A stretch of 64,000 nucleotides of DNA from Microbispora amethystogenes. GTDB taxonomy: Bacteria; Actinomycetota; Actinomycetes; Streptosporangiales; Streptosporangiaceae. This document shows positions 14,065-57,227 of the stretch, in pieces. The first letter of the stretch is position 1; each line of letters begins with the position of its first letter. Under the pieces are notes generated by a model. It was not told the DNA's origin. It searched no databases and saw only the letters and a list, made by a program, of their open reading frames with translations. The stretch lies in assembly GCF_016863015.1 (NCBI RefSeq), contig NZ_BOOB01000014.1, positions 248,001 through 312,000 on the forward strand. The letters run 5' to 3'. A program made the translations under genes and the position numbers.

Positions 14065-14183
14065 CCTCTTGCACCGCTCAGGTCGACCGAGTGCACGTGA
14101 CCTTTCCCGCCCGCCGGTGACGTCCCTGGCGGGGATCGTCACAGAAAGCGACCAAAGGACCTGTCGGGCACAGTGAGTAGTAC

Positions 14184-14195
14184 TACGATCACGCT
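14184..14195 (+). promoter_or_regulatory. candidate -10 box for leaderless HEPN/NTPase operon
   Basis: TACGAT at 14184-14189 sits 6 nt before the GTG at 14196, the usual distance for an actinobacterial promoter whose transcript begins at the start codon. There is no ribosome site in front of that GTG. Confidence 0.45.
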
Positions 14196-14606
14196 GTGTC
14201 TGTGGACGTCGGCAGGAGCCAGCTACGCGGGAGCTTCTCTCTCCAGAGAGAAGCCGCGCTGTCGATGCCGGACAACGCGCCGGCGGCTCTTCTCACCTTC
14301 TATGGCGCGGAATGCGGCATGAAAGCCGCCATTCTGGACCGCCTCGGTCTGCGGTCCACCACGCAGCTCCCCGAGCACCTGAGAAACCACGATCTGCACC
14401 GGTTGGCCAAGGAACTGAGACTCCCTCCTTCCCTGTGCAGGCGGATGCGGCCCTGCGCGAGCCAGAACACACCTGGACAGGTGGCATTCGGCGATCTGCA
14501 CCAGGCGTGGCGATACGGCCACCCCCTGCGGAAGGACCAGCAGCAGGAGGCGCTGACCGTGCTGCGTGAGCTGCTGGACTGGTGTCGGCGAGAATTGAGG
14601 ACATGA
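14196..14606 (+). CDS. HEPN-like small helical protein, first gene of two-gene module
   Basis: 136 aa, all-helical by composition. The segment LLTFYGAECGMKAAILDRLG (residues 32-51) followed by NHDLHRLAKELRLP (64-77) and WRYGHPL (105-111) matches the pattern of HEPN-fold proteins: an E/C-x-x-K helix, an HDL helix cap, and a late RY. The canonical RNase motif RxxxxH is not clearly present, so nuclease activity is uncertain. The GTG start lacks a ribosome site but has a -10 at leaderless spacing. ATGs further in (14265) are alternatives. Its TGA overlaps the next gene's ATG (ATGA), implying fixed stoichiometry. Base composition is lower in G+C than flanking genes. Confidence 0.65.
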   Translation: MSVDVGRSQLRGSFSLQREAALSMPDNAPAALLTFYGAECGMKAAILDRLGLRSTTQLPEHLRNHDLHRLAKELRLPPSLCRRMRPCASQNTPGQVAFGDLHQAWRYGHPLRKDQQQEALTVLRELLDWCRRELRT

Positions 14607-17326
14607 TCGTGCCCGATGAGACATCGGTCCCGGAGCGTCTCTACACCTGGGTTGACGTCGACGCGCATCTCGCGAATCTGGCTGTTCGCGATCAGTGGCC
14701 CCACTGGCTGCACGAGTGCGACGCGTTCTGGGACGGAGTGGAGCTGACCGTCAGTCCCAGCGCATCGCGTGAAGAGGCGCTCTCCTGGCTGGGGGAGAAG
14801 TTCGGCGTGGGCTCGATCGTGCGCGACGAGGAGGTCGCCGCACTCCGGCTCGACGACGTCCCAGGGCGGTTGTCCAACCGGCTGCTTCCGATCATGGTCC
14901 GGCATCGGGAGCCCGACCCGCCAAGGCGAGAGCCGCGATGGCGGGAGCGTCGGATCGTCCGTTCCCTCGGCCGGCCGCTGCCTCCACCTGGTGGTCCCTT
15001 TCAGGGCGACGTGCGGATCGCCGCTCTGCACTCCTTCAAGGGCGGAGTGGGGCGCACGCTGCACGGAGTCGCCCTCGCCGAGGCCATCGCCCAGCGTGGT
15101 GAGCGAGTGCTCCTGGTCGACGCCGATCTGGAGGCGCCCGGGATCACCTGGATGTTCACCGCTCATGGTCGTCGCGTGGACTTCGCCTACGAAGACTTCC
15201 TGTCGCTACTGCACGCGTCGGAGGACGGGCGGCCCGACGACGCGGTGACGCTCGGGTCGGCCTATCTGCCGAATCAGACGATCGACAATGTGATCGTCAT
15301 GCCGACCAGGCGCACGCCGCAGGACATCGCCCCGCCGCGCATCCAGCCCACCGACCTGCTGACCCCCGAACGGTCGATCTACTACCTGACGGAGTCCCTG
15401 GGTCAACTCGCTCATCATCTTGAGGCGCGGGCGGTTCTGATCGACCTGCGCGCCGGCGGCAGTGAGCTGTCGGCCCCGGTGCTCCTCGACCCCCGGGTGC
15501 AGAGAATCTTCGTCACCACAGTCAGCAACCAAGCACTGACCGGTACTGCCCGCACCATCCAGGAACTCGGCAGGAGGGCCCCCTCACGCGCCGAGGATCC
15601 CGCGAGCGCGGCGGTCATCACCCAGTTCCATCCGCAGGGCCACGGCGAACTCGCCGTAGAGGCCGCGGCGATGCTGCGTGACGTGATCTCCAAGACGCTC
15701 GAGCCGGGCAGCCTGGAGAGCGAGGACCGGGTGGTCGATGGGGACGTCACACTGGAACCGATACTGAGCGTGTTCCAGGATGGTCTCCTGGCGCTTCCCT
15801 CGTCGTGGGAGGCCGTCGTTGATCTGGTGCGTCGGCAGCGGCTCCACCACACCATGGCCCCACTCGCGGACGAACTGAGCAGATCGGAAGAGCCCGCGTT
15901 CATGCCTCAGGCGCCACCTGTGTCGCCTTTTGGCCCGGATGAGCATCTGGCGGCGCTCCGGGGACGGCTCGGAGACTTCGCCCGGCGGCTCGCGTACGCC
16001 GAGACCGCTGACGACACGGCGTTCCTGCCGACGGAGTCACTCCGGAACCTTTTGACCTCCCACCGGACCGAGCCGCCCCTGTGCGTGGTGGCGGGTGCCA
16101 AGGGGTCCGGCAAGACGTTCACCCAGATCCAGATGTGCTTCCGGCGGACCTGGCGCGACTACGCAGCCGACGTCGGCGTTCCGGGGGTCTCGCTGCAGGC
16201 CTTGCTGGCTCCCGTTCTCATATCCAAGAATCTGAAGGACGACGCTTATCAGCGAATAAGGGCGATTCAGTGCGACGCCTGCATCTCCTCGGCGGCGGAG
16301 CCGGCGAGTCAACTGGAACTGCGCGATCTGATCGATCGGGCGTTGCGTTCGCAGCTCTCCGACTCGGATTGGCGGCGAATCTGGCTCACGTGTATGGCTC
16401 GAGCCGTGGGCATCGATGCCGAGCCCGCCGACGTGGAGCGGAAACTGGCCGACTTCGCCCACGGCGACTCGCGGATCTTTCTCATCGACGGGCTCGAGGA
16501 CCTGCTGCAGGATTTCGCTCGAAGTGAGGCGCAGCGGCAGGCGCTTCGGGTGCTCATGGTCGACTGCCTCGACTGGCTGCGCAGCTTGAGGGGCCGGCCA
16601 CTCGGTCTGGTCATCTTCGTGCGCCGGGATCTCGTCCAGGCGGCGGTACGGCAGAACTACAACCAATTTCTCGCCCGATACAGCGAGTACGAGCTCAAAT
16701 GGAATCCTGCGGAGGCGCTGCGGCTCGCCCTGTGGACAGCCCATCGCTCCGGAAGCCTCCCTCGCCTGTCGTCCGAAGAGGTGGCCAAGGCGACGGACAA
16801 GGATCTGAGCAGGCGGCTCATACCTGTCTGGGGCGAGAAAATGGGATCGCCCCGCTCCCGGGAGGCGAGGTCGGACGGCTGGTTCCTCGCTGCGCTCTCC
16901 GACTTCACCGGGCAGATTCAGGCGCGTGACATCGTCATCTTCATCGCGGAGTCCGCGGACATCTCCGAGGATGACAGCCGGTGGTCGGATCGGCTGCTGA
17001 CGCCATCCGCCATGCGGAACGCGCTGGTCAGATGCAGCCGGGAGAAGATCGCAGCGATCGGGGCGGAGAGTCCGCAGGTCGGAGAGCTCCTCAATCGGCT
17101 GGACGGCCTGAGCGCGGAGAAGAAGAAGATCCCTTTCAGTCCCGAGATCGTCGGCCTCTCGGGCGAGGATCTCGATCTCCTGGCCGCCAACGGAGTCGTC
17201 TTCCGAGAGGAGGACCAGTACTGGATCCCCGAGATCTTCCGTCACGGTCTGTCGTTCAAGGCAGCGGGCCGTCCGAAGATCCTGGCCATCGCCAACCTCG
17301 TCCGGCAGCGCAACAATCTCGACTGA
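14603..17326 (+). CDS. dual P-loop protein: ParA/MinD-like domain (KGGVGRT) plus KAP/STAND-like NTPase
   Basis: 907 aa from the ATG that overlaps the previous stop; a GTG 21 bp earlier is the alternative. After about 130 N-terminal residues comes a SIMIBI ATPase domain. It has SFKGGVGRTLHGVALAEAIA (KGGVGRT at 146-152) with Arg where the catalytic Lys normally is, then LLVDADLEAPGIT and AVLIDLRAGGSEL. A second P-loop, GAKGSGKTF (498-506), starts a different NTPase domain with Walker B FLIDGLEDLL (about 625-634), resembling KAP or STAND ATPases. The C-terminal 250 residues may bind the target. There is no membrane segment. Homologues are annotated KGGVGR-motif variant AAA ATPase. Pairing with a HEPN protein and low G+C suggest a mobile conflict or defence module (inference). 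Confidence 0.8.
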   Translation: MIVPDETSVPERLYTWVDVDAHLANLAVRDQWPHWLHECDAFWDGVELTVSPSASREEALSWLGEKFGVGSIVRDEEVAALRLDDVPGRLSNRLLPIMVRHREPDPPRREPRWRERRIVRSLGRPLPPPGGPFQGDVRIAALHSFKGGVGRTLHGVALAEAIAQRGERVLLVDADLEAPGITWMFTAHGRRVDFAYEDFLSLLHASEDGRPDDAVTLGSAYLPNQTIDNVIVMPTRRTPQDIAPPRIQPTDLLTPERSIYYLTESLGQLAHHLEARAVLIDLRAGGSELSAPVLLDPRVQRIFVTTVSNQALTGTARTIQELGRRAPSRAEDPASAAVITQFHPQGHGELAVEAAAMLRDVISKTLEPGSLESEDRVVDGDVTLEPILSVFQDGLLALPSSWEAVVDLVRRQRLHHTMAPLADELSRSEEPAFMPQAPPVSPFGPDEHLAALRGRLGDFARRLAYAETADDTAFLPTESLRNLLTSHRTEPPLCVVAGAKGSGKTFTQIQMCFRRTWRDYAADVGVPGVSLQALLAPVLISKNLKDDAYQRIRAIQCDACISSAAEPASQLELRDLIDRALRSQLSDSDWRRIWLTCMARAVGIDAEPADVERKLADFAHGDSRIFLIDGLEDLLQDFARSEAQRQALRVLMVDCLDWLRSLRGRPLGLVIFVRRDLVQAAVRQNYNQFLARYSEYELKWNPAEALRLALWTAHRSGSLPRLSSEEVAKATDKDLSRRLIPVWGEKMGSPRSREARSDGWFLAALSDFTGQIQARDIVIFIAESADISEDDSRWSDRLLTPSAMRNALVRCSREKIAAIGAESPQVGELLNRLDGLSAEKKKIPFSPEIVGLSGEDLDLLAANGVVFREEDQYWIPEIFRHGLSFKAAGRPKILAIANLVRQRNNLD

Positions 17327-17362
17327 CGCGGTCCTTACCGGCCGTCCGGAGTCAGGGTCTGT

Positions 17363-50230: not shown

Positions 50231-51173
50231 ACCGCTCCCTGCGCTCCCGCACCCTCTCCTGGTCCCGTACGAGAACCGTGCTGTGGATCACCGGCGCGAT
50301 GTCGTCGCCGAGCTGGGGGGCGGGGTTGGACTCGTAGTAGACGACCCCGTCGAACAGGATGAAGTCCGACAGCGAGCCGCGCAGCAGGGGCGGCGCGTCG
50401 GTCAGCAGCAGCGTGCGAACCTCGATCCCGACCCCCGCCTGCCACTTCCACACCCTGCGGAACGCGTCGGAGTCGAGCCGTTCGGAACGATCCATGACGA
50501 ACACGCGGCGCACCCGCACCCCGCGCTGCACGAGATCGCGCTGGAGCTTGACGTAGCGCTGCCCGAGATCGGTGTGCCAGAAGCCGCCGGCGAACTCGAT
50601 GTCGCGGGCGTCCACGCTGGTCAGGCTGATCGCGTCCAGGCTGATCTGGGTGTTCTTGACGAGGGCGAGCAGCCAGTCGCGGTCCTCGCCCTCGTAGACG
50701 GCGTACCTGCCGTCGGTGAGCTCGCCGAGGAACTTCGCCATCCGGCTGATCTCGTGGTGCACCAGGCTCTTGACGAGGTCCGGCATGTCGTCGCGGATCT
50801 TGGTGGCGTTCTGCACCAGCTCGGCCACGCCCCTGGTGTGCAGTGACGACGTCTCCATCAGGCCGAAGAGCCTGCTCGCCTCGTTGATCCTGGTGAAGCT
50901 GTCGGCCACGAGGGCGTGGGTCTTCGAATGCTGTCTGCTCTGCTCCTTCCGTACGGTCTCCAGCTGGTCGTCCACGTCGACCAGGAACTGCACGACGAAG
51001 GCGACGCCACTGATGAACGTCGCGAGCAGCAGGCTCCACAGGTCCTCGTTCGGGCCGGGGATGAGCGCGTTGCTCACGAGATAGCTGACGCCGCCCACGA
51101 GCACGGTCACGAGCGCCTTGCGCACGATCCTCGGCACGAGCGTGGGCGGCGGCTCCGGTTCCGCTCCGGTCAC
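50193..51173 (-). CDS. membrane-anchored PLD-like protein, last gene of SCO252x-type operon
   Basis: 326 aa from GTG 51171-51173 (GGAGG 5 nt upstream); GTG 51179 overlaps the preceding stop as GTGA and is the alternative. Two TM helices near the N-terminus (ALVTVLVGGVSYLVSNALI; LWSLLLATFISGVAFVVQFL) are followed by a coiled region. The cytosolic domain has DRDWLLALVKNTQISLDAIS, VRVRRVFVMDRSERLD and SDFILFDGVVYYES. The fold resembles phospholipase-D-like sensors but the HKD catalytic motif is missing, so it may bind rather than cleave. It is the only membrane protein of the operon and may place the complex at the membrane (inference). Confidence 0.72.
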   Translation of the reverse strand: MTGAEPEPPPTLVPRIVRKALVTVLVGGVSYLVSNALIPGPNEDLWSLLLATFISGVAFVVQFLVDVDDQLETVRKEQSRQHSKTHALVADSFTRINEASRLFGLMETSSLHTRGVAELVQNATKIRDDMPDLVKSLVHHEISRMAKFLGELTDGRYAVYEGEDRDWLLALVKNTQISLDAISLTSVDARDIEFAGGFWHTDLGQRYVKLQRDLVQRGVRVRRVFVMDRSERLDSDAFRRVWKWQAGVGIEVRTLLLTDAPPLLRGSLSDFILFDGVVYYESNPAPQLGDDIAPVIHSTVLVRDQERVRERRERFSELWQAATPAA

Positions 51174-56117: not shown

Positions 56118-57227
56118 ATGGTCCACCCAGTGGCTGTCGGGGCCGAACCATTCGGCGATGCCGCGACGTCACGGGAGGGTGGCCTACAGGCGCCGGAGCG
56201 GGACGAAATGGTCCTCGTCACCGGCGCCGGTATTGACACGAAGCTGCTGGCGCCGCTGGAGGAGCGGCACAACCTGAAGGTGCTGCACCTGCCCGGCCCG
56301 CTGGACGAGGCAAGGCTCGGCGACCACCTGAGGCGGCACGTGCGCGCCTACCTTCACGGAGGCGAGGAGCGGGCGACCGGCGGCGTGCTGCGTAAGGCGG
56401 GGGCCCTGAAGGTGATCGCCTTCGTGGGGGTGGGCTACGAGAACTTCATCGACGTGCCGACGGCCGACGAGCTGAACATCGCCGTCACGAACACCCCGGG
56501 GGCGGCGACGGACGCGGTCGCGGCGTTCACCGTGGGCCAGATCATCAACGCCAACTGGCTGATCCCCCACCATCTGGGCCCGCCGGTCCCCGGCTGGAAG
56601 AATCCCGGCGAGATGCCGCACGAGCTGGGCGCCCGTCGCGTCGGCATCCTCGGAATGGGGGCGAACGGTCGGCGCATCGCCGAGATCCTGTGCGACGGCT
56701 TTCACGCGACCGTGACCTACCACAGCCGCACTCGGAGGGCGGATTTCGAGCGGAAACGGAAAGGCCGCCTCTGCTATCGGGGATCGGTGTCCGAGCTGGC
56801 CGAGGTGAGCGACATCCTCGTCGTCATGGTGCCGGAGACCGACGAGACCAGGTCGATGATCGACTCGTCGGTGATCGACCTGATGCCGCGGGGGTCGGTC
56901 ATCGTCAACACCGCGCGCCCGGCGATCGTCGATCCCTACGCCCTGTACGCCGGGCTGAGAGACGAGCGGGTACGCATGGCGGTCTTCGACGGCTTCTACG
57001 ATCCTGACTCTGACATCGGGTCGAAATTGCGCCGGGATTTCGGCGACCGTCTTCTCGTGACCGGGCACATCGCCTCCCATACCCAGGAGACGATGAACCG
57101 CATGATCACTCAAGCTGTCGCGTCCATTGATAATTACCTGACAAATGGGACAGATCAGTACGAGGTGGGCAACCGTCGTGATAAGTGCGGGGAGGCACCT
57201 CGGGTGACATGCGGACAGTCATCATAA
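56118..57227 (+). CDS. D-isomer-specific 2-hydroxyacid dehydrogenase
   Basis: 369 aa from ATG 56118; an in-frame ATG at 56208 (MVLVTGAGIDT) is an alternative that would fit family length better. The NAD-binding motif is GILGMGANGRRIAEILC (about 176). The catalytic Arg region is VIVNTARPAIVD and the His is in TGHIASHTQETMNRM. The usual Glu segment reads FDGFYDPD, so the Glu of the R/E/H triad may be replaced. It has GAATDAVAAFTVGQII as in phosphonate/formate dehydrogenase-like members. It is followed by a ThDP decarboxylase gene in the same direction, suggesting 2-oxoacid metabolism. Confidence 0.85.
   Translation: MVHPVAVGAEPFGDAATSREGGLQAPERDEMVLVTGAGIDTKLLAPLEERHNLKVLHLPGPLDEARLGDHLRRHVRAYLHGGEERATGGVLRKAGALKVIAFVGVGYENFIDVPTADELNIAVTNTPGAATDAVAAFTVGQIINANWLIPHHLGPPVPGWKNPGEMPHELGARRVGILGMGANGRRIAEILCDGFHATVTYHSRTRRADFERKRKGRLCYRGSVSELAEVSDILVVMVPETDETRSMIDSSVIDLMPRGSVIVNTARPAIVDPYALYAGLRDERVRMAVFDGFYDPDSDIGSKLRRDFGDRLLVTGHIASHTQETMNRMITQAVASIDNYLTNGTDQYEVGNRRDKCGEAPRVTCGQSS

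Follow-up and report, generated by a model that had tools for sequence, protein, structure and literature searches.

A predicted HEPN-fold protein paired with a two-NTPase protein: a PDC-M28-like candidate defence accessory found near BREX-2/Pgl genes in some genomes

Two overlapping genes of Microbispora amethystogenes, which encode a small protein with a predicted HEPN fold (P1) and a large protein with two NTPase domains (P2), are by their sequences a relative of the predicted system kind PDC-M28 in which the B and C components are fused. They lie in a stretch of 64,000 nucleotides (the window; NZ_BOOB01000014.1, positions 248,001 to 312,000), and they constitute a module that is real, conserved and unevenly distributed. 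The explanation favored here, with moderate confidence, is that the pair serves as a PDC-M28-like defence accessory in which the NTPases switch a non-canonical HEPN partner. Defence is the likeliest role because related copies are placed in BREX-2 loci, because the pair resembles a kind listed in PADLOC and because of the parts from which it is built.

The genes are joined by an ATGA overlap into one operon (Table 1), and the coordinates, overlap and motif positions given in an earlier, sequence-only reading of the window were all found again. The start codon at the 4-nt overlap is kept in 19 of 20 homologous pairs; this count excludes locus L051 of genome G313, where P1 is missing and P2 is reduced to its first half, and the P1 rows of L047 and L048 start at non-start codons here and in the comparison with split A proteins given below. 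As had also been claimed, the codons of the pair are less GC-biased than those of its neighbors, with GC3 values of 0.787 for P1 and 0.816 for P2 against 0.921 +/- 0.047 in the 46 other script-called open reading frames (ORFs) of the window. Similarly, the GC3 of P2 falls below the local ORF median, which includes the module itself, in 17 of 19 loci. Low GC3 is found as well in the window ORFs at 50283-50846 (0.690) and 56118-57227 (0.846). The suggestion of a leaderless promoter gains support from conservation, since a TANNNT box lies 4-10 nt upstream of the P1 start in 21 of 23 homologues (L048, L073 and L074 being left out of the count), whereas 2000 mononucleotide shuffles gave 1.6 on average and never more than 7.

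Table 1. Coordinates in the window of the gene pair and its features.
Feature	Position	Strand	Remarks
-10-like TACGAT, leaderless-type promoter	14184..14189	+	6 nt upstream of P1 start
P1, 136-aa protein, predicted HEPN fold	14196..14606	+	GTG start; position of PDC-M28A
P2, 907-aa two-NTPase protein	14603..17326	+	ATG start; layout of PDC-M28B plus C
P2 aa 1-137, conserved N-terminal region	14603..15013	+	many residues invariant in 11 of 11
P2 aa 138-322, KGGVGR-variant ParA/MinD domain	15014..15568	+	NCBIfam NF047398
P2 Walker A GAKGSGKT, aa 498-505	16094..16117	+	GAKG[SA]GKT in 24 of 25 homologues
P2 aa 611-838, Sll1717/PDC-M28C-like	16433..17116	+	NF047389 49.2 bits; PDC-M28C E 8.5e-6
Extra segment holding the pair	14065..17362	.	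blastn against 7 same-genus sites

P2 begins with a region (residues 1-137) that matches no family in Pfam, PADLOC or NCBIfam. The domain that follows passes the cut-off of the AAA_KGGVGR model (NF047398; 155.7 vs 90 bits) and carries KGGVGRT at residues 146-152, with KGG[VT]GRT in all 25 homologues. Of the two different NTPase domains that had been read from the sequence, both are therefore present, but the first has arginine in place of the P-loop (Walker A) lysine in 25 of 25 homologues. MinD/ParA-like domains of some conflict systems are called inactive in the accessible part of PMC7159879. Of the 25 homologues, 24 keep an intact second P-loop; its Walker B motif, FLIDGLEDLL (residues 626-635), falls inside the Sll1717/PDC-M28C-like part. 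The single exception is locus L049 (genome G048), where Walker A and B of the second NTPase are both degenerate, yet the pair and pglW are retained. P2 falls short of the 75-bit cut-off of the ATPase_Sll1717 model (NF047389), as does the split M28C protein described below (56 bits), and the second NTPase is, as far as such profiles tell, a distant relative of the Sll1717 family. A Pfam match of P2 to nSTAND1 (E 0.02) is below the cut-off. These motif counts and the P2 tree cover 25 of 26 loci, as P2 of L071 is split over three frames; that locus is kept in the P1 counts of 26. In Microcystis phage Mic1, a gene annotated as ParA family (MN013189.1, 8156-8794) matches the region of the second P2 NTPase with 24.9% identity (E 3e-13). 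Against two same-genus homologues the dN/dS of P2 is 0.103 and 0.118, lower than that of every neighbor compared (0.192-0.480 and 0.212-0.272), and these ratios indicate strong purifying selection. The corresponding values for P1 are 0.220 and 0.283.

The evidence that P1 is a HEPN protein is structural. Its AlphaFold2 model (pLDDT 93.7) has the four-helix HEPN fold, and known HEPN domains make up 19 of the 24 structures that match it best, among them the HEPN-MNT-type structures 5yep, 7ae6 and 7bxo. The assignment also draws on a comparison with HEPN sequences that covered 23 of 30 loci, the others being too short or containing stops. The HEPN pattern suspected earlier is thus borne out by the structure prediction that had been named as the means of overturning it. 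By sequence, P1 finds nothing significant in Pfam, PADLOC, NCBIfam or PDB sequence searches, and no HEPN model is among the matches in Pfam (the 11 members of A1 and 10 further proteins) or in NCBIfam (P1). A match of P1 to DnaG_DnaB_bind (E 0.058) was judged to be due to chance. The absence of a HEPN model match does not undo the assignment, since HEPN families without the usual marks are listed in the accessible text of Anantharaman et al. (2013; PMC3710099).

The catalytic marks of P1 are a different matter. The R-X4-6-H motif that is conserved in HEPN RNase toxins is not conserved among the 26 P1 homologues: it starts from the expected arginine, that of WRY, in two and from R63 in 10, and it occurs somewhere in the sequence of 22, with no one common aligned position. 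Invariant residues of P1 are Y36, E39, K43, H65, H102, R106 and Y107. The pair had been read as a conflict or phage-defence module, of a kind that recurs in defence and toxin systems. The defence link holds through BREX-2 in some genomes; for a toxin, the lack of a conserved R-X4-6-H makes the case weaker. It is in this light that a chromosomal toxin-antitoxin pair, composed of a HEPN toxin and a ParA-like NTPase antitoxin, must be considered. A small first gene that overlaps the second would suit such a pair, and both fold types occur in one operon in the HEPN (MAE_18760)-ParA/Soj dyad, which has been proposed as a toxin-antitoxin system (PMC3710099, accessible text). MAE_18760 is listed there with the motif that only two P1 homologues carry at the WRY arginine, however, and a plain antitoxin needs neither a second NTPase nor an N-terminal region of the kind seen in P2. 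A toxin-antitoxin pair is thus an unlikely explanation.

The PADLOC matches of P2 to PDC-M28B (4.1e-14) and PDC-M28C (8.5e-6) are both partial, and the PDC-M28A models match neither P1 nor any of the 11 members of A1. Genome G357, one of 3 matches among 198 genomes of the phylum, carries a PDC-M28C match over the full length; there, PDC-M28A (3.4e-26), PDC-M28B and PDC-M28C matches follow one another as separate, overlapping genes. This A-B-C order is repeated in G613 and G568, and B is present in 3 of 394 genomes of the class. The similarity between P1 and the split A proteins is weak (hhalign probabilities of 4.4% and 8.0%); the E-C-x-x-K-A motif of P1 aligns with two of the three and R-Y with all three. 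P2 can be aligned to split B over no more than 55 columns and to split C over no more than 107. The split A protein of locus L111 touches DUF4559, presumably the CXorf38 group, below the cut-off (E 0.013). The claim that the architecture had not yet been described is not supported, as the unfused A-B-C layout is already in PADLOC as candidate PDC-M28. Among open-licence PMC papers, the search found no relevant paper on KGGVGR, PDC-M28 or Sll1717 and no experiment on the pair, which is also absent from the accessible parts of PMC12839542 and PMC7159879.

BREX-2/Pgl is a phage-resistance system of Streptomyces and its relatives, and both the fused and the split forms are found beside its genes. 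The split operon sits between pglW and pglX in two of the three genomes that have it, G357 and G613, with a PglZ match beyond the operon in each; PglX of G357 was identified by model and the other pglW and pglX flanks by tblastn. The fused pair of G224 stands before pglW in a locus that goes on to pglX, pglY, pglZ and brxD, and that of G315 is flanked by pglX and pglW, followed by pglY, pglZ and brxD. PglY is below its cut-off in both genomes, and in G315 the Pfam PglZ model finds no match, though the BREX-2 PglZ model does. In G048 the fused pair adjoins pglW near a contig start. Half of a P2 gene at L051 (8115-10469) adjoins a fragment of a PglW gene, with a PglX gene further on, and is a decayed copy related to the G315 arrangement. 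A nearby pglW in 3 of 25 fused loci compares with 0.067 expected (25 loci without L011, 8 kb per side and one pglW per 6-Mb genome), and if G048 and G224 are counted as one event, the chance of the remaining two is about 0.002. Because G315 stands apart from G224 and G048 in the P2 tree, the link to BREX-2 arose or was retained more than once; the independent events are nevertheless fewer than the loci, since the tree places G224 and G048 as sisters and G357 and G613 belong to the same genus. The proposed survey of homologues for defence-island neighbors is therefore positive for BREX-2 in some genomes, but 23 of 26 fused loci have no PglW match in the DNA examined around them, which is short for some. 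In the window itself, no Pgl model matches among the ten neighbors scanned (for a kinase, among the best 25 of 31 families), and tblastn finds no PglW or PglX match. Elsewhere in the same genome (G000:C57:57608-71344) there are a pglW match over the cut-off and a PglZ match, which probably represent, on the strength of these models, a BREX-2 locus of this strain. Another PglZ-domain match over the cut-off lies on the contig of the window, about 104 kb before it (G000:C14:144228-144452).

These associations raise the question of whether the pair is an accessory specific to BREX-2/Pgl, which would regulate or back up that system, with solitary copies serving a BREX-2 locus elsewhere in the genome. 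The neighborhoods of both forms fit this explanation, as do the matches on another contig of this strain and the occurrence of PglW matches in 10 of 19 carrier genomes, compared with 77 of 322 non-carriers (p 0.012 in a Fisher test, kinship ignored). Nine of the 19 carriers have no PglW match, however, the Fisher test takes no account of kinship, and in the 20 kb examined for the split copy of G568 neither PglW nor PglX is matched. An accessory specific to BREX-2/Pgl accordingly has a low probability. Neither P1 nor P2 matches a BREX model.

Near full-length P2 is found in 19 of 341 genomes of the family, and the pair in 3 of 15 genomes of the genus. Seven same-genus genomes have an empty site, with 4-211 bp between the HAD and MarR genes; five of the 15 have no close MarR match and are outside this comparison. 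P1 adjoins P2 in all 26 loci that have P1. In a search of 21 loci, 20 had P1 directly 5' of P2 and the other was the half-P2 copy of G313, while a P1 profile gave nine matches in 394 class genomes, three of them known and six new, all six with an adjacent P2. Neighbors mostly differ between genera, except for general families and the PglW/PglX genes, and the stable core synteny that had been named as a refuting result is not seen. Additionally, members of host family f1 are scattered over three parts of the P2 tree. The distribution is thus patchy, but recent arrival in this strain, or recent spread among the copies, is unsupported: all three copies in the genus sit at one site, with some neighbors in common, and the synonymous divergence of P2 (0.51 and 0.63) exceeds that of every neighbor compared (0.23-0.47 and 0.28-0.42), perhaps owing to its less biased codons. 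Loss in the other genomes of the genus is as likely as gain here. Plasmids gave no match, and phages one partial match covering 25% of the query. In a PADLOC scan (E 1e-15) of 87 of 94 neighbor ORFs from 15 loci (the other seven belong to L052, with six, and L055, with one; one ORF scanned is the PglW of G315), the best 25 of 61 families included PD-T4-6, mad6, MkoA, kinase and GlgB models, with at most three members each in an overall tally; in the window, one of ten neighbors matched, a kinase. The least probable explanation is that the pair serves large actinobacteria in signalling or regulation outside defence, for although the genes around many copies show no defence match and P2 is strongly constrained, the module is patchy, with empty sites and neighbors mostly unrelated across genera, and both its forms are placed with BREX-2.

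As a defence accessory, P1 and P2 would assemble into a single complex. Since its Walker A lysine is lost, the KGGVGR domain might bind nucleotide or dimerize without ATP turnover, and the C part of P2 would hydrolyze ATP as an infection-responsive switch, alone or with BREX-2. The element released or activated would be P1, either a non-canonical effector acting through its invariant residues or an adaptor, with the former slightly more likely. Against the defence reading stand the loci without a PglW match in the DNA examined, the missing conserved RNase motif, the weak likeness of P1 to split A and the low dN/dS of P2, which is atypical of an arms-race sensor. A bolder and rather doubtful proposal can be offered only tentatively: that P1 is a HEPN-fold protein whose active site has been remodelled in a non-canonical way, that a pseudo-ParA (Lys-to-Arg Walker A) and an active NTPase in tandem control it, and that the module is a mobile backup defence, which has entered BREX-2/Pgl loci repeatedly but can work by itself as well. 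What the analysis contributes is a predicted HEPN fold for the small protein of a PDC-M28-like candidate defence layout, and a tie of its fused and split forms alike to BREX-2/Pgl. If P1 is active without R-X4-6-H, the definition of a HEPN effector would widen; if it is inactive, the pair is an example of HEPN serving as a switch partner.

Among known systems, HEPN-MNT toxin-antitoxin pairs such as SO_3166-SO_3165 share the fold of the small protein, but P2 matches no nucleotidyltransferase model and the RNase motif is not conserved in P1. The MAE_18760-ParA/Soj dyad, as described in the accessible text of PMC3710099, likewise has a HEPN gene beside a ParA-like ATPase gene, and differs in that same motif and in the second, intact NTPase part of P2. 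BREX-2/Pgl shares loci with the pair in some genomes, but P1 and P2 match none of its models, and the DNA examined around 23 of 26 fused copies holds no PglW match. PDC-M28, a PADLOC-DB v2 candidate, has separate B and C genes, whereas both are in one ORF in P2, which the B and C models cover only in part, and its A component is not matched by P1; the pair nonetheless has a small A, a KGGVGR B and an Sll1717-like C, in the same order and in one operon.
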